Part shown: piece by piece, positions 12,437-60,999 of the stretch | How the letters are laid out: the number at the start of each line of letters is the position of its first letter | How positions within the stretch are numbered: position 1 is the first letter of the stretch | Source: a virus | DNA length: 60,999 nucleotides | Direction: 5' to 3' (one strand) | IMG/VR virus record: IMGVR_UViG_3300045051_001011 | Location: 1 to 60,999 of that record | The notes under the pieces: model-generated | What the model was told of the DNA's origin: nothing | The model's database searches: none | What the model saw: the letters and a program-made list of their open reading frames with translations, nothing else | Made by a program: the position numbers and the translations under genes

Positions 12437-12730
12437 TTACTTGTGCCAGTGGCAGCGCTTGCGTAGCACAAGCACATCGTTGGCGTTGGGCAGCGTGTCG
12501 TAATACGCCTGCACCAAGGCAACGAACTTTTCCGCCGAGTCTTTGGGAGTCGCGGTAGTTTTCTGCCAGTAATATTCACGAGAGATGGTGGTGTGCCCTT
12601 CTTTGAATGTGAAACATGTCCTGTACGGCACAGAACCCGCAAAGAACAGATTATCCTTACTGGCAAATACCAGCACAAGCCGGTCCATGTCTTCACACCG
12701 CACCACGACAGGAACCCGTACTTTTTTCAT
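12437..12730 (-). CDS. Hypothetical protein, 97 aa
   Basis: I place the start at 12730 (MKKVRVPVV), with CACGGAGGCCTGAC upstream. An equally good in-frame ATG lies 81 bases further up, at 12811, because of a tandem duplication that copied the start region; using it would add 27 residues with little structure. The protein has a beta N-terminal half and a basic His-containing tail (KRCHWHK). Unrecognised. Confidence 0.65.
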   Translation of the reverse strand: MKKVRVPVVVRCEDMDRLVLVFASKDNLFFAGSVPYRTCFTFKEGHTTISREYYWQKTTATPKDSAEKFVALVQAYYDTLPNANDVLVLRKRCHWHK

Positions 12731-12878
12731 GTCAGGCCTCCGTGTGGAGCTTGTACTCGGAGTGCTGCCACAGCACCTGTTTTCCACGACAGTAAACCGT
12801 ACTTTTTTCATGTCACTTCTCCGTGTGGGGCTTGTACTCGGGGTGCTGCCACAATACCTGCTTTCCCCGACTGGTGAC
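12717..12878. repeat. 81-bp imperfect tandem duplication across a gene boundary
   Basis: Two adjacent units carry the end of the 132-aa gene (CTGTGGCAGCAC, GAGTACAAGC, CACACGGAG) and the start of the 97-aa gene (ATGAAAAAAGTACGG). Units are offset by exactly 81 bp, a multiple of three, and have diverged at several positions. Confidence 0.85.
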
Positions 12879-47550: not shown

Positions 47551-47761
47551 CACCGTCCTCCGAACTTTCGGTCAGCGACGCTGCAACGCCTGCTGCAACT
47601 ATGGCGAGTACGGCCACCGCAAATACGGTTCCAGCACGCTCACAAGCGCTCCATTCCGAAAAGTTGTAGTCGTATTTGATGAACACCGCAGCGGCCACAG
47701 TCAATACAGCCACCAGCAGCGCCGACATCACGACCACGATGCCACGAATTGTTTTACGCAT
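47537..47761 (-). CDS. Small membrane protein, 74 aa
   Basis: The start at 47761 (MRKTIRG) has GAGGAGGAAGAGA immediately upstream, inside the end of the preceding gene. Two transmembrane helices (about 7-28 and 43-62) and an acidic tail (SSEDGDDNE). Size and topology also fit a small holin or antiholin, but it is in the opposite arm from the other lysis-type genes. Confidence 0.6.
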   Translation of the reverse strand: MRKTIRGIVVVMSALLVAVLTVAAAVFIKYDYNFSEWSACERAGTVFAVAVLAIVAAGVAASLTESSEDGDDNE

Positions 47762-49046
47762 TCTCTTCCTCCTCATGCTTTCTTTCTTCGTATAACATCA
47801 TGCCCACAGTCAGTGCAAACGGGCTCATCAGGTCGTAGAAAACCGCCGGTATGACGTACACGATGAACTTCAAAAGATCCTCGGCGATCCCAAACAGCTT
47901 GGCAAACATGCCGTAAACCGTGGCCTCCCGGGCTTCCTGGATGACTTTCTCCTCAACGGTTGCCGCACCTCCATCAGTGTTCATGATCACTGCCAGATAC
48001 GGTGCGCGTTCCTTGGTGGCGGCTTCGGCGGCTTTGGCGGCCTTGGTGTAGGTATTGTAGTACTGCCAGCGGAGGCTTTGGTTACCCTCCTTGCCGAGGG
48101 AGGTTTCGGCATCGTAGAGCGGGCGGTACTTGGCGACCAGTGCGTTGTTCTCCTCGATGACCTTGAGCAGCCGCGCCGACTCCGAAGCAGCCAGTTCTTC
48201 CTTGGCCGTAGCGGCTTTGACGGCGCTCGACTTGCTGACGACTGCCTCGATCTTGACTTCTTCGCCGCTCTTGAACTGGTCGTAGTTGACCTTGATGGTG
48301 GCGAACATGGCGAAGGCGATCACGATGACGCCAAACAGCACGAAGGCTCCAGCGAGCGCTCGGTTTGGCCCCTTGCCGGTCATCCAAAAGTGCCGCGCAG
48401 CAGTGAAGGCGATAGCAGAAAAAAGAGTCATGATGAGGCCGGTGGTGACGGCAATCGCCCAGGCACGTCCGCCGTCGTGCATGTAGGTCGTGATGTGGTA
48501 GGCGCTCATCACCAGGGAGCCAAGGCCGACGATGACGATGACGGCGAGCATCATCAGCGGTGAGCTATGGACCGTGTGTACCGCCTTTTTCTTCTGCTCC
48601 TCCGGAGCCCTTTCGGCGGGTTTGTCCTGGGGTGGCTGTGCTGCAGCCGGTACTGCTGGCTCTTCGGCCGTGACAGGCTCCGGCATTGGGCCAGCCTCGG
48701 GCTCCTCCTCGGCGACACCGGCCAGTATCTTGGTCATGCTGGGCGCCGTGTTGCGAAGCGGAGGACGCGCAGCGGGAATCGGTGGGCTGCTGATCTCCAC
48801 ATCCGCGGGCACAGGCTTGCCCTTACGCTGTAGAGCGCCGGTCTTGGCGGCGTGGTCAAAATCAAAGCCGGAGAATTCCGGGCTGTTGGCAAGCCCCAAA
48901 ACCTGCTGCATGACGATGCCTTTCCGGTCCCAGTCAATGAAATCCTGGACCTTGGCGATTACGCCTCCCTGGCGGAACAGCACCTTGGTGCTGCCCTGTA
49001 TATATTCGAGGCCGGTGTTTTTGTATTTCTTGACTTCGATTGCCAT
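47754..49046 (-). CDS. Large multi-pass membrane protein, 430 aa
   Basis: The start at 49046 (MAIEVKKYKN) follows AGAGGTAAT. It has a cytoplasmic-looking N-terminal domain (1-90), a long Pro/Ala/Glu-rich linker (about 90-160), three hydrophobic helices (about 164-180, 196-214, 232-250), a large Lys/Glu/Ala helical region (about 255-375) and a final hydrophobic region (about 382-418) with a charged tail. No family recognised. It directly follows the helicase motif-I gene; whether they cooperate is unknown. Confidence 0.7.
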   Translation of the reverse strand: MAIEVKKYKNTGLEYIQGSTKVLFRQGGVIAKVQDFIDWDRKGIVMQQVLGLANSPEFSGFDFDHAAKTGALQRKGKPVPADVEISSPPIPAARPPLRNTAPSMTKILAGVAEEEPEAGPMPEPVTAEEPAVPAAAQPPQDKPAERAPEEQKKKAVHTVHSSPLMMLAVIVIVGLGSLVMSAYHITTYMHDGGRAWAIAVTTGLIMTLFSAIAFTAARHFWMTGKGPNRALAGAFVLFGVIVIAFAMFATIKVNYDQFKSGEEVKIEAVVSKSSAVKAATAKEELAASESARLLKVIEENNALVAKYRPLYDAETSLGKEGNQSLRWQYYNTYTKAAKAAEAATKERAPYLAVIMNTDGGAATVEEKVIQEAREATVYGMFAKLFGIAEDLLKFIVYVIPAVFYDLMSPFALTVGMMLYEERKHEEEENA

Positions 49047-49047
49047 A

Positions 49048-49341
49048 TTACCTCTCCAGCCACGCTGCAAATTTCCGAGAGTATGCCTCGGGGTTACGGT
49101 GTTCTTCGGGAGCCGACGCGATGAAAATGTCGGCAGGATCTACACCCATCTCAATCAATTCATCGCGCCACTGCTCGCACAATGAGTTCGGCGCAATTAC
49201 CATAGTCGGCATTTTGCGGTGCTGTGCGATGAACGATGCGGTCAGTGTCTTGCCGAGTCCACAGGCAAAATTGAGACAGAAGAAAAGCGAATCGGAAAAA
49301 CGGGCAAATGCCTGTCGCTGGTATCCACGAAGTTGCTTCAC
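49048..49341 (-). CDS. SF2 helicase fragment with motif I (Walker A), 97 aa
   Basis: GTG start at 49341 after GAGGAGATCACT. The product begins LRGYQRQAF (Q-motif-like), carries Walker A CGLGKT (residues 27-32) and a motif Ia-like APNSLCEQWRDEL, and stops after AAWLER, before any motif II. The missing motifs II-VI are in the upstream gene at 49389-50726, transcribed first. Together they form one helicase cut in two with swapped order. The motif-I half cannot hydrolyse ATP alone. Confidence 0.75.
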   Translation of the reverse strand: MKQLRGYQRQAFARFSDSLFFCLNFACGLGKTLTASFIAQHRKMPTMVIAPNSLCEQWRDELIEMGVDPADIFIASAPEEHRNPEAYSRKFAAWLER

Positions 49342-49355
49342 AGTGATCTCCTCAA

Positions 49356-49393
49356 GCAATCAGGCAATGAGTACCTGCTTTGCTACTATCATT
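49356..49393. promoter_or_regulatory. Recurrent intercistronic element, copy J
   Basis: The plus strand reads CAGGCA, 17 bp, TACTAT. Sits precisely between the two halves of the split helicase. Confidence 0.65.
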
Positions 49394-50726
49394 CGAAACG
49401 AAAAACGTCCTTGGTATTAGACGAAGCAAGCAGCTCCTGGCCGACGTTCAAGGCCATGATGTTGCGCTCCTCGACTGATTTTTGCACGTATATCTGGTAG
49501 GCGAACTTCGGTGTCTTACTTTGACCACGAAGCAGCCGGTGCTGTGCCTGATGGTGGTGCTCGACCGAAGCCCCACAAACATACCACACCATGTAGTTCG
49601 CGTCACGCAAGCAGTTGAGCCCATAGCCTGCGCTGGCCTGATTTGCCAGAAACACGCGTGCCTCGCCGCTGGCAAATAGGCGCTCAGATACCTCTTTCGC
49701 CAACTTGCTTTCCGATCCGGAGTACCGGACATGCGAGACGCCCATCTTATCCAGGCGTTCGCTGATTGAGTCGAAGGCATTGGTGCGCGAGCACCACACC
49801 ACGACCTGATTCTTGTCGGTGTCGATTTCTTCGAGTAACTCTTCCAGTTCGTCGAGCTTGGGATTCTCGGATAGCGGGCGGTAGGTGACCGTGCCAGTCT
49901 CCTCATCCTTTATGGGCTCAAAGCCGTTGCAGATATCTTGCAGCCTGACCACCAGCTCCAGAGCTGGTGCTTTGCCGAGGACGAGCTGGTCGGTGAAGCC
50001 AAGCTCAATCAGTTCGTTGGCGAGCTTCTTCGCGGCTTTGCCGATGGTGACCGGGCGTTTGATTGGCTCGTAGATGTACTTGTCCTTTCTGATGTCAAAC
50101 ACGTCTTCGCGTTCAACGGTCATCGTCACATGAGCTACGCGGCGCATCAGTTCATCCTGATGCAGGAACGGCGTGTAAGTCTTGTGCACCATGATGTGGT
50201 CGAGCTTTTCTTCATTGATGCCGAATTCATTCGTGATTCTTACACGTGAGGCTTCGAGCTGTGGATCGCCACCAAACCGGTAAGCGTTGACCATCCGCTT
50301 CCGTATGGCTGTGTAGTCCTTCTGGCTGATGATGACGCGCCGACCGCGCGCAGTTCGGAGGTTGGTCATGACACAGTAGCGCTCCGCAAAGGCGTAGGGG
50401 CTTTCAGGGAAAAACTCACGCGACAGGAATTGGTACTGGTCGATCATATTCATCGGAGACTTGGACTTGAGCGTACCGGTGAGGATAGCCCGAGAATGCG
50501 TGTAGCGTTCGAGCAGCTTGATCATCCGGCAGCGCTGGCTCTTCTTGTCCTCGGTCATGGCCTGGGTGGTCTTGATCCATGAACTCTCGTCGAGTACCGC
50601 GAATACTTTGCCGCTGAAGTACTTCAGGAACTTATGCACGACAGAAGGCAAATCACCAAAAACGGGCTCTTTCTTACCTTTCAGCGCACCGCTGAAATTC
50701 TGTGTTGGCACGATCAGGTACTTCAT
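49389..50726 (-). CDS. SF2 helicase fragment with motifs II-VI, 445 aa
   Basis: Starts MKYLIVPTQNF (ATTGAGGAGCAGCG upstream). Motif II is LDESSW (residues 45-50) with the following IK, motif III LTGT (82-85). The C-terminal RecA-like domain has WCSRTNAF (motif IV region), ASAGYGLNC (motif V) and QAQHRLLRGQS (motif VI, arginine finger, near residue 400). Walker A is absent. It needs the 97-aa product of the next gene to be complete. SNF2/DEAD-type phage helicases usually have both on one chain. Confidence 0.8.
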   Translation of the reverse strand: MKYLIVPTQNFSGALKGKKEPVFGDLPSVVHKFLKYFSGKVFAVLDESSWIKTTQAMTEDKKSQRCRMIKLLERYTHSRAILTGTLKSKSPMNMIDQYQFLSREFFPESPYAFAERYCVMTNLRTARGRRVIISQKDYTAIRKRMVNAYRFGGDPQLEASRVRITNEFGINEEKLDHIMVHKTYTPFLHQDELMRRVAHVTMTVEREDVFDIRKDKYIYEPIKRPVTIGKAAKKLANELIELGFTDQLVLGKAPALELVVRLQDICNGFEPIKDEETGTVTYRPLSENPKLDELEELLEEIDTDKNQVVVWCSRTNAFDSISERLDKMGVSHVRYSGSESKLAKEVSERLFASGEARVFLANQASAGYGLNCLRDANYMVWYVCGASVEHHHQAQHRLLRGQSKTPKFAYQIYVQKSVEERNIMALNVGQELLASSNTKDVFRFE

Positions 50727-50735
50727 CGCTGCTCC

Positions 50736-51071
50736 TCAATAAATATCCGGCATTGCTGCAACTGCTGCGGACGGTTCAAACTTCTCAACCGGCTGTGGCT
50801 TTGCAAAAACTGGCTTTACCGCCGGCTCTTTCCAGCTTGGCCCAAGCTTGTTGTGCAACTTGTTGTGACACCACCGGCAAAGCCATACCACATCCGTCCA
50901 GTGTTCACGCAAATATGACCAGTGGTGGGCCTCGATCATGCGCTTGGCAAAGCGTTTACCGCACTTCTCACATACGCATGGTTTGATGAGCTTGCCGCGC
51001 CGCACGGCGTTCTTGACCGCCCACTTCGCACGCTCCTGGTCGGGCCACAGCTCGCGGTAGCGTTTGCTCAT
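50736..51071 (-). CDS. HNH-type endonuclease, 111 aa
   Basis: Two zinc pairs flank the HNH core: CEKCGKRF (about 34-41), IEAHHWSY (His49-His50), then CRWCHNKLHN (about 66-75). The order CxxC, HH, CxxCHNxxH is that of HNH nucleases with a structural zinc. ATGA overlaps are absent; nine bases separate it from the helicase gene. It may act in DNA processing or be a free-standing homing-type enzyme. The tail after residue 80 is Pro/Ala-rich. Confidence 0.7.
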   Translation of the reverse strand: MSKRYRELWPDQERAKWAVKNAVRRGKLIKPCVCEKCGKRFAKRMIEAHHWSYLREHWTDVVWLCRWCHNKLHNKLGPSWKEPAVKPVFAKPQPVEKFEPSAAVAAMPDIY

Positions 51072-51481
51072 ATTTCCTCCGGCTTCATTGCGTAATCGAC
51101 ATGCCTGGGCAGACGGATCGAAAGACTCTTGTACTTGAGTATTTCTTCCGCAGTAAAGCAGATGGACTGACTGGTACGCTTATCCCAAGCCAATATCAGT
51201 ATCCAGTGCTTCTTGTAGTTCTGGCGGTAAAACAGCGGCTGAGACTTCTTGAACGCTATCTTGCCGCTGGCATCCGAGCACTTAAATTCTATCATTGTGG
51301 CGTTGGTCTGGTACCTGTCAAGTGGTAACTTTAATACGTCAGGAAAACCAGGGATAGTCTCCTCCGTTTCGATGCAGAAAAAAGATGCCTCGCCCAGGGC
51401 GGAAAGGCGCTTGACGACAGCGCCCTTGAACTCCGTTTCGTCGGCAAACGGTCCTTCTACCAGACCGGGCACTACCCTCAT
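51068..51481 (-). CDS. VRR-NUC/resolvase-like PD-(D/E)XK nuclease, 137 aa
   Basis: Glu17 in DETEFKGAVV, Asp48 in PGFPDVL, Glu65-x-Lys67 in MIEFKCSD and a following Gln in KKSQPLFYRQ give the E...GxPD...ExK...Q order of VRR-NUC and related nucleases. Such enzymes cut branched DNA. It overlaps the HNH gene by four bases and its ATG overlaps the upstream stop. A GCAGAAAAAAG variant of the dispersed motif lies in it. Confidence 0.7.
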   Translation of the reverse strand: MRVVPGLVEGPFADETEFKGAVVKRLSALGEASFFCIETEETIPGFPDVLKLPLDRYQTNATMIEFKCSDASGKIAFKKSQPLFYRQNYKKHWILILAWDKRTSQSICFTAEEILKYKSLSIRLPRHVDYAMKPEEI

Positions 51482-51651
51482 ACCCGCCCCCTGTCTTCTT
51501 CGTCGAACTCAATCCCAAGCTGGGCTGCCTCGTCTTCGGTAATGGGGTCAACGCAGCTTGAGCACGGTGGATTTATGTGGCACGAGCACCCGCGCAGATT
51601 CCGTAGCGCTGCAATCTGTTCTTCAGTCAGTTCAATGGCTTCAAGCTTCAT
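51478..51651 (-). CDS. Cys-rich mini-protein, 57 aa
   Basis: ATG at 51651 overlaps the stop of the TOPRIM gene (ATGA) with TAGGAGTAACAT upstream. It holds a Cys cluster CSCHINPPCSSC (residues about 22-33) that can bind one zinc, flanked by acidic helices. Its stop overlaps the next ATG. Probably a small adaptor; function unknown. Confidence 0.65.
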   Translation of the reverse strand: MKLEAIELTEEQIAALRNLRGCSCHINPPCSSCVDPITEDEAAQLGIEFDEEDRGRV

Positions 51652-52625
51652 ATGTTACTCCTATCGTCTTCGTCGAACAATCCGGGTTGCTTCGAGTAGT
51701 CGTTCTCGATGACGGGCACACGCTGCCAAAGCTCGGGCTTCCGCACGAACTCTTCCGCGTGTTGGAGGGTGGCTTTTTCTTCTGCTTGCCGCTCCAATGC
51801 CGCATCCATGAGGTCTTGGTCGACCAATTCGACGATCCTCTGCTCAATCAGGTCGTCGAGGATCTTGGGGTTCAGGGCGTCAAGCTCCCAGGACGACTCG
51901 CCGTGGATGCGGATGTAGGCTTCGGCTCTGGAGTCGGTGATCTTGGCTGGATTGGGAGGCGGCTGGTACTCCTCGACCTGCTCCATGTTCAAAGCGATGC
52001 GGTCGATGGTGAGGCCCAGCTCACCATGGGTGAATTCGACCAGCCGCTCCTCGATGTCGCGGGTCATGTCGATGCCCGAGGGGTCATGGTCACCCAGGTG
52101 GATGATGGTAACCGGGCGCCGGCAGCCCTTCGACTTTTCGAGCAGGCGCTGGGCTGCGTGCCACATTTCGGACTGGCTGGTGTAGCCTCGGCAGCTGAAG
52201 CACGAAACATCGTGACGCTGGGCGACTTGCTCGATGACACCGATCAAGGCGTCTTTTTCGACCCAGACCTCCACGTAGTTGGGCTGGTCTTCCCAAAGGT
52301 CGATGCGGTATTGGTTGGCAGCTGCGGAAATGATGTCGCCCGGGGTGTTCCAGTGCGGCAGACTCCGAATGTACCGGGTCCGGTCCTCTATGGCGTACCA
52401 GTCGATGCGGCCAGTCAGGCGGCCGTTGGAAATCAGCTCGCCGATGTTTTTGTAGCTGCGCTCATTGTTTGGGATAATTCCACGAGCGACGAGCTGATAG
52501 TAGACCTGCCGCAGGGTAAGTGAGTAGCCAGCGTCACCGTACTCCTTGATGATGGCATTGATCTGCTTGATCAACGCAAGGCCGGCCATCCTGATCTTTA
52601 TTTCACGGTACTTCATTATTGGCAT
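51648..52625 (-). CDS. Spo11/TopoVI-A-like protein with TOPRIM domain, 325 aa
   Basis: Residues 37-45 (LTLRQVYYQ) match the LTxRxIYY segment that carries the catalytic tyrosine of Spo11/TopoVI-A. A TOPRIM domain follows: Glu123 in WVEKDALIG and Asp179/Asp181 in GDHDPSG. Gly-Tyr in CRGYTSQSE also fits. Such proteins cut DNA by a tyrosyl intermediate, usually with a GHKL-ATPase B subunit, which I do not see. The start at 52625 (MPIMKYREIK) has GGGAGAAG ten bases upstream and overlaps the thyX end. The C-terminal ~130 residues are acidic. Confidence 0.75.
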   Translation of the reverse strand: MPIMKYREIKIRMAGLALIKQINAIIKEYGDAGYSLTLRQVYYQLVARGIIPNNERSYKNIGELISNGRLTGRIDWYAIEDRTRYIRSLPHWNTPGDIISAAANQYRIDLWEDQPNYVEVWVEKDALIGVIEQVAQRHDVSCFSCRGYTSQSEMWHAAQRLLEKSKGCRRPVTIIHLGDHDPSGIDMTRDIEERLVEFTHGELGLTIDRIALNMEQVEEYQPPPNPAKITDSRAEAYIRIHGESSWELDALNPKILDDLIEQRIVELVDQDLMDAALERQAEEKATLQHAEEFVRKPELWQRVPVIENDYSKQPGLFDEDDRSNI

Positions 52626-53239
52626 TGTTCTACTTCTCCCATGTCGAAAATCTCTGGCATGTTGCGCCGCAACTCCTGGTACAGTGGAATGGTGAGTGCG
52701 CGCATTTGCGGATGCGCTGCTTTCTCGACGGCGCGCAGCTTCAGGAAGTGACGCCACTCACGGAAGTTCGCGGTTATGATGATTTCGGTCTTGGTGCTGT
52801 TGTTGAGCACTTGGCGGGCTTGCTGGGGAGTCTGGCCAAGCTGAAGCAATCGAAGATATGACGACTCGCTGTCTTGACAGGCTATAAGCCACAGCGCATC
52901 TGGTGCATCACTTTGGCCATGCCAGATCGGTCGCACAAACGTGCACTCGCCTGCGTTGCCGTAGTTCACATACCGGGTGGACTCCTGGGCGAAACTGGCA
53001 ATGCGGTGGCGCACCAGTTCATGAGACACGCCCCGGTCGGTGACGAAGCGCACAGATAGGCTGGCGTGCTCGATCATCGCAAGATGCCCGCGCTTGACAA
53101 GCATTTCGACAAACTTTATGGCACTGTCTGCGGTAATCTTATCTTCGGACTTGTAGCAGGTCCGCCCGATACGCTCGATGGCCAAATAGGGCTGCTCGGT
53201 CATCCACTCAATTTGGTAGCTTTGTTCAACGATCTTCAT
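52616..53239 (-). CDS. thyX: Flavin-dependent thymidylate synthase, 207 aa
   Basis: The ThyX signature RHRIASFAQESTRY (residues 77-90) is intact. Makes dTMP from dUMP with FAD, NADPH and methylene-tetrahydrofolate, raising thymidine supply for phage DNA. Length is normal. It overlaps the DUF3310 gene upstream by 14 bases and the TOPRIM gene downstream by 10. Confidence 0.95.
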   Translation of the reverse strand: MKIVEQSYQIEWMTEQPYLAIERIGRTCYKSEDKITADSAIKFVEMLVKRGHLAMIEHASLSVRFVTDRGVSHELVRHRIASFAQESTRYVNYGNAGECTFVRPIWHGQSDAPDALWLIACQDSESSYLRLLQLGQTPQQARQVLNNSTKTEIIITANFREWRHFLKLRAVEKAAHPQMRALTIPLYQELRRNMPEIFDMGEVEQCQ

Positions 53240-57169: not shown

Positions 57170-58675
57170 CTATTCCTCCTCGATCATGTCGCGGACAAGC
57201 TCGATCACGTTGTCCATGCCATATTTACCTTCGCTCGGTATCAGGTACAGCCCAATCTTTGGCCGGCTGCAGGCCACGTAAAGCACGCGCAGCTCGCTGT
57301 CCAAATCGAGCATGGTGTTCTCGCTGACCAGTCGCGTGGAGTCCATGAATACTGAACAGAAATCGCACTCACCGCCCTTGACTTTGTAGGTAGTGGCAAG
57401 CAGAAGAAAAGGCGGAGCTTTTGACATCCTCTCGATTTCTTCAATGCCGAACTTCTGCACGTAGTCATAATAGACATAGCGCCGCGTGGACGGGATCAAC
57501 TCGCTTTCGGTGAAGTCGTCGTTGATGTCCTTGATCCCGTTGGCGTCCATGAAGTGCTGGCGAGTATCCTTGGTGCCGAATCCTTCGCGGCGATAGGCGT
57601 AGAAGCGCTTGATCTTCGCAATGTCTCGCTCCGGGATTACGAAGCCCTTGGTAGTGTGATATGGTACCGTGAAGGCTTCCAGGGTTTCTGCGACGCCGGC
57701 AATGAAGTGGTTGGCGCGGAACAAAAAGTACCAGCGATTTGGCAAGCACCCGTTCTCGTCGAGGTCTTTCCTGACGATGCGCGCAAGTATGCCGCGATCA
57801 GGGATCGTCTTGACAAAGCCCTCGATGTCTTTGGCGGGCGCGTAATCCTTGTCGACCTTGTTCTGGATGAGCGCGGTGATACCCTTGGCGAACCGGTAGA
57901 CCGCACGCGGCAGCCGGTACGAGAGTTCGAGCTTGACGGTCTTGTGCTTGCCTGCGAGGTGGATCAAGGTCTCTGGTGACGCCCCGGAATACGAGAACAA
58001 CGATTGAAAATCGTCCCCGGCTATGCGGATCTTTTCAGCGTTCCGGGAAGCGATCTCCACGACCTCCCAGTGCATCTTGGTCAAGTCCTGGGCTTCGTCG
58101 ATGAGAAACACCTTCACGCCCACTGGCTTGTTGCGTTCCTTGAACCTAACCAAGCAGTCGTAAAAATCCACAAGATCGTTCTGCTGCTTGAAGGCTTCGT
58201 AGGCACTGACCAGCCGGTCGTAGTGCTCCTCGTCGTAGGTCGAGTGAATGAAGACGCCCTTATCGCCGCCACTCCGGATGGCATCGTAGCGCTGCAGCAT
58301 CTTGTCGTCGTCGGTCTGGTTGTCGAAGGTCGAGGCCAGATTCACGTGGAAGCCCAGGAGCTTGTTGAAGCGCTCGATGTCGCGCCGTTCTATGATGTTC
58401 TTGTGTTTTAGCCCGGACTCGTGAAAGCACAGCCGGTGCAGGGTCTGGAAATACGGCAGATCGTCGGGTGTCAAATGCGGGTTGGCCTTGATAGCGCGGT
58501 CGATACCGTTGTGCACACCCTTCCGGGTGAAGGTGACAAAGGCAATTTCGTCTGGCCGGTATACCGACAGGAGTTCCGCCATCTCTTCCATCATGGCGTG
58601 AGTCTTGCCTGCACCAGCAGCGGCAAGGTAGACCACCACATCGTCGGTATTGAATCTGGCGTCGTAGGGCTTCAA
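57170..58675 (-). CDS. SF1 helicase, UvrD/Rep-like, 501 aa; TTG start
   Basis: Walker A AAAGAGKT (residues 18-25), motif II LIDEAQD (about 195-201), motif III GDDFQSLFSYSGA, motif IV/V region LSYRLPRAVYRF and motif VI-like YVACSRPKIGL near the C-terminus. Shorter than UvrD, lacking the large 2B domain, like phage Dda/UvrD-like enzymes. The start is a TTG at 58675 (AAGGAGATAGGTGA upstream), overlapping the preceding stop as TTGA. Probably unwinds DNA for replication or recombination. Confidence 0.85.
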   Translation of the reverse strand: MKPYDARFNTDDVVVYLAAAGAGKTHAMMEEMAELLSVYRPDEIAFVTFTRKGVHNGIDRAIKANPHLTPDDLPYFQTLHRLCFHESGLKHKNIIERRDIERFNKLLGFHVNLASTFDNQTDDDKMLQRYDAIRSGGDKGVFIHSTYDEEHYDRLVSAYEAFKQQNDLVDFYDCLVRFKERNKPVGVKVFLIDEAQDLTKMHWEVVEIASRNAEKIRIAGDDFQSLFSYSGASPETLIHLAGKHKTVKLELSYRLPRAVYRFAKGITALIQNKVDKDYAPAKDIEGFVKTIPDRGILARIVRKDLDENGCLPNRWYFLFRANHFIAGVAETLEAFTVPYHTTKGFVIPERDIAKIKRFYAYRREGFGTKDTRQHFMDANGIKDINDDFTESELIPSTRRYVYYDYVQKFGIEEIERMSKAPPFLLLATTYKVKGGECDFCSVFMDSTRLVSENTMLDLDSELRVLYVACSRPKIGLYLIPSEGKYGMDNVIELVRDMIEEE

Positions 58676-59838: not shown

Positions 59839-59873
59839 CATCAGGCAACAGGGCGCCTATTTGCTACTAAAAT
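59839..59873. promoter_or_regulatory. Recurrent intercistronic element, copy K
   Basis: The plus strand reads CAGGCA, 17 bp, TACTAA. On the minus strand TTT TAG TAG CAA contains the primase stop codon, and the next gene starts 20-40 bases on. Confidence 0.65.
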
Positions 59874-60999
59874 CTGGTGTCGTCACCATCAGAATTTCCG
59901 CGGTCTTCCTTGTTCAGCTTGTTACTGGCCAGCACTTCGGCATCGGCTTCCATGATGTCGTCGTAGAAGGTATCGAGCGCCAGCAATTCTGGATCGTCTA
60001 CTTTCTTCCAGCATGGGATGGTCTTCTCGACACCGCTTGCGGTCGTGTATTTGATTTCGCCTTCGGTGCATCCGTAGAGCACGAGCTGCTCGCGCAGATT
60101 TGTACGCCCCAGCACAAATTTCATGGTCCGCAGATAATCCTGGAAACCATCGGTCTTGAAGTAATAGGCACCGTCCGCATGGTAGACCTGCTTGACATTG
60201 ACGGTGTAGGGCTGCTTGTTCTGAGCCTGCCGATGGGTCAAGTACCGCAGGAACAGCTCGCGCAGAGCCTGCATTTCGGTGGTGTCGGTGGCCTTCGGAA
60301 CCTCGCGCTCTTCTAGCATCGCCAAGCACTCATTGACGGTTTCTTCCCAGCGAGCCTGGGTGACCGAAACCGAGAGCTGCCCCAGGGTGTCGATGCATGC
60401 CTTCTGGACAGTCTTCTGGTTGAGCAGGTTGTCGGCCCCATCGATACGCAGGAGCTTGTACTCCTCAGTACCCGACAATCTGGCTTCCCACAGGTAGTAG
60501 GGCGTTTCCGCCAACATGCGGATAATCTTGCCGAACTCGATGTTCGAGACCACGTTTCCTTTCTGCTTACCAACCCCATATTTCCGCAGCTTGCAAAGCT
60601 TCTTGTCACACACCGACGCACAGGGCTCCTTCTTGCATCGTCCAAAGAGCTGGTAGTCCTTGGCAGAAACAGAAGAAAAAATCCCGTCAATCTCGCGCTG
60701 CGAGATGGGAGCGGCCAAGCGTTCGTTCATCTCCTCCAGGTCTTCCTTCTTGACCGAGGCGCCGTCCCGTGTCTTCAGGTAAATGGCAGCGGTCGTCAGG
60801 AACTCATTGCGGCCACTGTTCTCGTCCAGCCAGCCGGAGAGTAGCAGCATCTGAATACAGAATGGAGCCTCGCCGTAAGGCAGGGCGTCGGTGATCTTGG
60901 CTACGGCCGAGACCGACGTATACATGCTTTCGATGATCGGCAGTGCCTTGGCAATACCCACCAGTGTCCCGTCTCCGGTCAGCAGCTTCTGCCTGCACT
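59867..60999 (-). CDS. AEP primase, C-terminal part; continues from base 755 at the left end
   Basis: This is residues about 207-584 of the primase. It contains a Cys cluster RCKKEPCASVCDKKLCKLRK (about residues 327-347), typical of the zinc or iron-sulphur segment following the AEP domain of phage primase-polymerases, then helical regions and an acidic end NSDGDDTRF that resembles the SSB-like protein's tail. The frame is intact here. The stop is inside recurrent element K. Confidence 0.85.
   Translation of the reverse strand, partial: CRQKLLTGDGTLVGIAKALPIIESMYTSVSAVAKITDALPYGEAPFCIQMLLLSGWLDENSGRNEFLTTAAIYLKTRDGASVKKEDLEEMNERLAAPISQREIDGIFSSVSAKDYQLFGRCKKEPCASVCDKKLCKLRKYGVGKQKGNVVSNIEFGKIIRMLAETPYYLWEARLSGTEEYKLLRIDGADNLLNQKTVQKACIDTLGQLSVSVTQARWEETVNECLAMLEEREVPKATDTTEMQALRELFLRYLTHRQAQNKQPYTVNVKQVYHADGAYYFKTDGFQDYLRTMKFVLGRTNLREQLVLYGCTEGEIKYTTASGVEKTIPCWKKVDDPELLALDTFYDDIMEADAEVLASNKLNKEDRGNSDGDDTRF
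60866..60999. repeat. Direct terminal repeat, right copy (contig overlap)
   Basis: Matches bases 1-133 with one extra C; this copy keeps the primase frame and is probably the correct version. Confidence 0.9.

Follow-up and report, generated by a model that had tools for sequence, protein, structure and literature searches.

Catalytic units that are divided between genes, or whose motifs follow an unusual order, have been described for C5-DNA methyltransferases. M.AquI and M.EcoHK31I each form one catalytic unit from two gene products (PMC3404938), and circularly permuted members, M.BssHII and others, have a permuted motif order for which permutation by duplication was proposed (PMC5944983). 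In phages, group 2.2 jumbo phages encode a split DNA polymerase III alpha, and multi-piece RNA polymerases occur as well; the chains of both are thought to reconstitute (PMC7824862). Gene fission is thus known; for a helicase, a cut between Walker A and Walker B together with a swapped order of the pieces appears to be undescribed, and in the open-access literature we found neither a helicase split between these two motifs nor a swapped split order in a motor. Such an arrangement is encoded in the IMG/VR virus record IMGVR_UViG_3300045051_001011, positions 1 to 60,999 of which were analysed (60,999 nucleotides, one strand; hereafter the window). Two neighbouring genes on its minus strand encode the parts of one SF2 helicase in reversed order, and it is very probable that the two chains form one composite SNF2-type motor derived from a helicase gene that was cut once and swapped in order.

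The gene transcribed first (50726-49389, minus strand; ATG at 50726, stop at 49389) is an open frame for 445 amino acids, the large chain, and the gene transcribed second (49341-49048, minus strand; GTG at 49341, stop at 49048) is an open frame for 97 amino acids, the small chain, or for 103 if the alternative TTG at 49359 is used. The small chain contains the Q-like region (YQ), Walker A or motif I (CGLGKT, 49246..49263, minus strand) and motif Ia (VIAPNSLCEQW), and corresponds to the N-terminal part of RecA domain 1. The large chain begins with the strand KYLIVP of the motif Ib region (50706..50723, minus strand), where the ancestral chain is cut, and continues with motifs II (LDESSWIK, with the Walker B box DESS read at 50580..50591, minus strand), III (TGT), IV (VVVWCSR), V (ANQASAGYGLN) and VI (QAQHRLLRGQ); it comprises the C-terminal part of RecA domain 1 and the whole of RecA domain 2 and is devoid of Walker A. 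Instead of the single-chain order I to VI of SF2 helicases (SNF2-like, phrog_62), the motifs are found on two genes in swapped order. In Pfam the small chain matches only the N-terminal part of ResIII (E 5e-7) and the large chain only Helicase_C (PF00271; E 4.6e-6, 27.3 bits versus a cut-off of 23.5). In PHROG both match phrog_62 'DNA helicase', the small chain in columns 696-778 and the large chain in columns 807-1125, complementary and without overlap. An earlier note on this DNA had assigned motif I, the Q-like motif and Ia to the second gene and motifs II-VI to the first. The former assignment is borne out by the open frame, the motifs and both profile collections; the latter holds in that all these motifs are present but has to be extended by the motif Ib strand.

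Where does the cut fall? In a reference hidden Markov model (HMM) built from 16 intact helicase homologues from phages, the small chain covers columns 26-105 and the large chain columns 139-475. Joined as small plus large, the chains of the window give one collinear domain over columns 26-475 with 182.7 bits; in genomic order, large plus small, they give two domains with 159.2 and 12.6 bits. The pairs of four relatives (L001, L002, L028, L038) likewise yield one domain as small plus large and two in genomic order. Around the cut site the sequence is ...VKKFIQTPSQK-CKILVMNVEAFST... in L011, an intact homologue, and ...RKFAAWLER / MKYLIVPTQNFSG... in the split pair; relative to L011 sequence is neither lost nor duplicated, and the C-terminus of the small chain abuts the large chain's N-terminal strand. 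RecA domain 1 is cut between the helix following motif Ia and the strand of motif Ib, which places Walker A and Walker B on separate chains. The pieces are collinear only when swapped, as expected from the previously proposed permutation by fission inside the motor.

To what extent is this arrangement conserved? IMG/VR was scanned with single chains and with alignments, and all loci were then processed by script. Both chains are present in 28 viral contigs, or 26 after dropping two near-identical ones; the large chain is incomplete in 2 of the 28. A scan of genome contigs with four large chains gave no match, and a scan with eleven large chains gave L118, a contig of a metagenome-assembled genome (MAG) of an uncultured Clostridium that carries both chains in the same layout, bringing the total to 29. 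In all 29 the small gene follows the large one on the same strand, and the fission, as well as the sharing of the arrangement with other phages, is thereby confirmed beyond the window. Identity across the clade falls to 32% for the large and 22% for the small chains, with GxGK[ST] kept in 28/28 small chains and DESS in all complete large chains; in the clade alignment DESS, TGT, G369, Q393, R397 and R400 of the large chain are invariant. Large-chain HMM scores are at least 401 bits within the clade (chains with at least 350 amino acids present; 438 bits for L118) and at most 130 bits for intact homologues, with nothing in between. Among the contigs found, neither an intact or fused-permuted member of the clade nor a fused frame with the C-terminal before the N-terminal part was seen. 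A search of 50,697 GenBank phage records revealed no clade member, the best matches of the large chain being intact helicases with about 25% identity; the small chain had no match in the GenBank phage records, and the plasmids searched gave no match. Measured from the stop codon of the large gene to where the small-chain HMM match begins, the gap between the genes is -4 nt at the smallest (an ATGA overlap), 7-50 nt or a few hundred nt in other members, and 3.45 kb at the largest (L032). In L003 (6365-6589) and L002 (6525-6806) a related small gene (CDYCEE.../CDHCGDE...) is inserted between the large and the small chain.

Both pieces have a common descent. The large chains form one clade (support 100/100, stem 1.62) beside 27 intact helicases, and the small chains form one clade (support 99/98, stem 1.67) beside the corresponding N-terminal segments of intact helicases; the two trees contain the same main groups, and their stems are about equally long. 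Pairwise distances of large and small chains correlate with r = 0.946 over 24 members, a value as high as this being reached in 0 of 2000 permutations. The ratio of nonsynonymous to synonymous substitution rates (dN/dS) is about 0.05-0.15 in both chains for pairs with measurable dS. Most pairs, those involving the window among them, are saturated in dS, and two of the small-chain estimates are based on very large dS values. These sequence comparisons support purifying selection on both chains. Since the arrangement is common to 29 contigs, the pair is a stable and probably functional two-part enzyme rather than a broken gene.

A hidden Walker A in the large chain and a full-length homologue elsewhere in the phage had been named beforehand as findings that would speak against the split, and neither was found. 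A motif scan of the clade's large chains brought no hidden Walker A to light, the sole loose regex match, AYAIGGKT in the large chain of L007, lying in a region predicted to be helical. Within the window record itself there is one copy of each chain, the intact-helicase HMM has no match besides the two chains, and there is no second SF2 helicase, Helicase_C being matched once; the other ResIII-like P-loop of the window is part of a UvrD-type SF1 helicase (57170-58675). Each of 13 whole clade records has one Helicase_C match above the cut-off, the large chain, with one extra match under the cut-off in the record of L032, and in 11 records ResIII has its main match in the small chain. As an identical 126-nt direct repeat is found near both record ends (8-133 = 60874-60999), the window record is probably near complete (terminally redundant or circularly closed).

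Structure prediction is consistent with a shared fold. AlphaFold2 was applied to a read-through of the L003 locus, consisting of the large part, 71 amino acids of unrelated linker and the small part, with stops read as Gly and 21 alignment rows. The model has a pTM of 0.74 and a mean pLDDT of 82, with about 92 in the small part and less than 50 in the linker, which is disordered; predicted strands are residues 3-7, 42-46 and 78-83 in the large part and 550-555 and 576-580 in the small part. For the large chain of the window alone (AlphaFold2, 11 rows) the pTM is 0.49, and residues 3-7 are not predicted as a strand. The L003 model with both pieces is better packed than the model of the window large chain alone, and in this proxy comparison the loss of strand 3-7 without the small part is the outcome expected of a shared sheet. 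The earlier note had stated that chains predicted not to pair would refute the proposal; the L003 read-through prediction, as a proxy for the two-chain complex, gives no sign of that. Joint action of the two chains, as proposed there, is supported by the conserved motifs, the purifying selection and the better packed read-through model. Foldseek retrieved with the read-through model the SNF2-family motors INO80, ISWI and Mot1 from the PDB, in sequential alignments with large root mean square deviation, and with the large chain phage helicases from BFVD, the named top matches being full-length and none a clear member of the clade.

How could such a motor have arisen and how would it work? An ancestral phage SNF2-like SF2 helicase/translocase gene would have been cut once, in the loop between the motif Ia helix and the Ib strand, and the pieces would have ended in reversed order, the large C-terminal piece first and the small N-terminal piece second, to be co-inherited thereafter. 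The simplest route to the swapped order would be a tandem duplication with opposite truncations, as proposed for the DNA methyltransferases, for whose permuted members it is the standard model (PMC5944983); no remnant of a tandem duplication was seen. The large chain would provide strand Ib, Walker B and motif III together with the whole of RecA domain 2, and the small chain the P-loop strand, Walker A and motif Ia, thereby completing the sheet of domain 1. ATP would be bound between two polypeptides, with the P-loop of the small chain facing DESS and the arginines of the large chain. The pair would thus act as a single ATP-driven DNA translocase in the replication/recombination block of the phage (PolA - nuclease - helicase), a role suggested by the neighbouring genes and by the family.

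Several points weigh against the composite motor. Physical assembly, ATPase and translocase activity and the biological role are inferred. The AlphaFold comparison is one between different orthologues with different alignments, and it uses a tethered chain without an interface score. The sequential Foldseek alignments cannot superpose a permuted chain and confirm the family, not the joint fold, and the distance (Mantel) correlation is expected of any linked genes and shows common inheritance, not contact. Furthermore, the genes are 0.3-3.5 kb apart in several members, which weakens translational coupling as a general aid to assembly. A more far-reaching version, in which this would be the first natural P-loop motor with Walker A and Walker B on different polypeptides by fission and the small chain, supplied separately, an exchangeable subunit that switches the translocase on, seems doubtful to us; bearing on it, the small gene of the window has its own upstream copy of a recurrent element, element J, described below.

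Alternatively, the two chains may no longer form one motor, the large chain being a P-loop-less scaffold or DNA-binding protein and the small chain an independent nucleotide binder. The spacing of up to 3.45 kb in L032 would fit such a separation of functions, as would the group L007-L010 with GKS, a degenerate motif Ia (TPKN..EDF) and acidic C-terminal tails. We nevertheless consider it unlikely, as DESS, motif III and the motif VI arginines of the large chain are invariant, which would make little sense without ATP bound to a P-loop, as a half RecA domain of 97 amino acids is unlikely to fold and hydrolyse by itself, and as both chains are inherited in parallel with no exception. That a helicase was broken by rearrangement and both pieces are pseudogenes or junk is highly improbable in view of 29 contigs with deep divergence and all motifs kept, a dN/dS below 0.15 where measurable and tight start and stop signals, even though fission and shuffling are common in phage genomes and an HNH endonuclease gene adjoins the large chain in the window. 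Could frameshifting or bypass at the junction yield a single permuted polypeptide from both genes? Stop and start codons overlap or touch in L007-L010 (four read at sequence level), and further members have gaps of -4 or -1 nt. However, the large frame of the window ends with TGA followed by TAG TAG inside the 47-nt spacer, the pieces of other members are separated by whole genes or by 3.45 kb, and each small gene has its own start codon with no in-frame fusion in any contig, so that this explanation is hardly credible; the exclusion of a frameshift in the earlier note stands on account of these stops and long spacers. Intein-mediated trans-splicing was also rejected, as the chain ends, including those of 11 relatives, contain no intein sequence and neither chain has a Hint/intein match in Pfam. 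An assembly artefact in one contig, for which nothing speaks beyond the window being one metagenomic record, is refuted by 29 contigs that have the same layout with conserved flanking genes and come from many IMG/VR datasets and a MAG.

The pair belongs to a block conserved across the clade, which we read as PolA - nuclease-like - large - small - membrane protein. The PD-(D/E)XK/VRR-NUC-like gene upstream of the large gene (51068..51481, minus strand; labelled from weak matches of relatives) is conserved in 25 of the 26 clade loci scanned and in L118, the exception, L073, beginning inside the large gene. When outgroup synteny was used to ask which piece moved, this nuclease gene was not found beside the intact homologues. 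Throughout the clade the small gene is followed at a short distance by a gene for a protein of unknown family (47754..49046, minus strand), read as a membrane protein from its hydrophobic stretches. In the window, an HNH endonuclease-like gene (50736..51071, minus strand) immediately precedes the large gene; such a gene adjoins the large chain only in the window, L001 and L002, that is, in 3 of the 26 clade loci scanned, so that a homing-endonuclease origin was discarded as the general cause of the split. The PolA frames of two relatives (L007:600-4043 and L025:745-4212) are about 1150 amino acids long versus 741 in the window and have internal LAGLIDADG homing-endonuclease domains, and the polymerases of these relatives likely contain inteins. 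A DNA-topoisomerase-like gene (phrog_6247; window 51648-52643) has an intein with a LAGLIDADG domain in L001 (L001:2253-4313) but not in the window.

Between the two genes of the window lies a window-specific copy of element J (49348..49388, minus strand; TAGTAGCAAA...CTCATTGCCTGAT...). About 10 copies exist in the window, at the minus-strand positions 59869, 49388, 16998, 15786, 15080, 13672, 13257, 11916, 9711 and 4335, with the form TAGTAGCAAA-N8-CTCATTGCCTNATNGGC; most of them shortly precede a ribosome-binding site and a start codon. As the best copies hold the palindrome TTGCCTAATAGGCAA, element J may be an operator or leader element. Its presence at the gene boundary, to which attention had been drawn, is real but incidental to the split; the element is absent at the junctions of L001, L006 and L017 and was therefore dismissed as its cause. 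Elsewhere in the window (12703-12864) there are two tandem direct repeats of 81 nt that are 88% identical.

Should the pair be functional, a RecA-type motor domain can consist of two chains divided between its two nucleotide-binding boxes, and this state can persist through deep divergence of the phages. Such a pair would offer a natural system for studying the tolerance of motor domains to fission and permutation, a split helicase ready for control through complementation, and a clear marker for an uncultivated phage lineage. An annotation pipeline would label the large gene helicase and overlook the Walker A in the adjacent small gene.

How does the pair compare with known systems? The intact phage SNF2-like SF2 helicases of phrog_62, for example of Vibrio phage phiVC8 (AEM62931.1), Pelagibacter phage HTVC027P (QGZ17868.1) and Xanthomonas phage FoX6 (QJB22104.1), have the same motifs and domain order once small and large chain are joined, at about 25% identity, but are encoded by one gene with motif I first, are about 480 amino acids long and form a separate clade. 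Genes fractured by split inteins are likewise examples of fission in phage-like genomes, whereas the helicase chains have no intein at the ends read. The split polymerases of jumbo phages are likewise separate replication or transcription chains, but they are not P-loop motors and no swapped adjacent order has been described for them. The C5-methyltransferases, which are not motors, resemble the pair in having either a catalytic unit of two products or a permuted motif order. The sites of natural permutation in these enzymes map to the variable region, with each of the two domains left whole; the phage helicase, by contrast, is cut inside its P-loop domain and combines the split with the swapped order.
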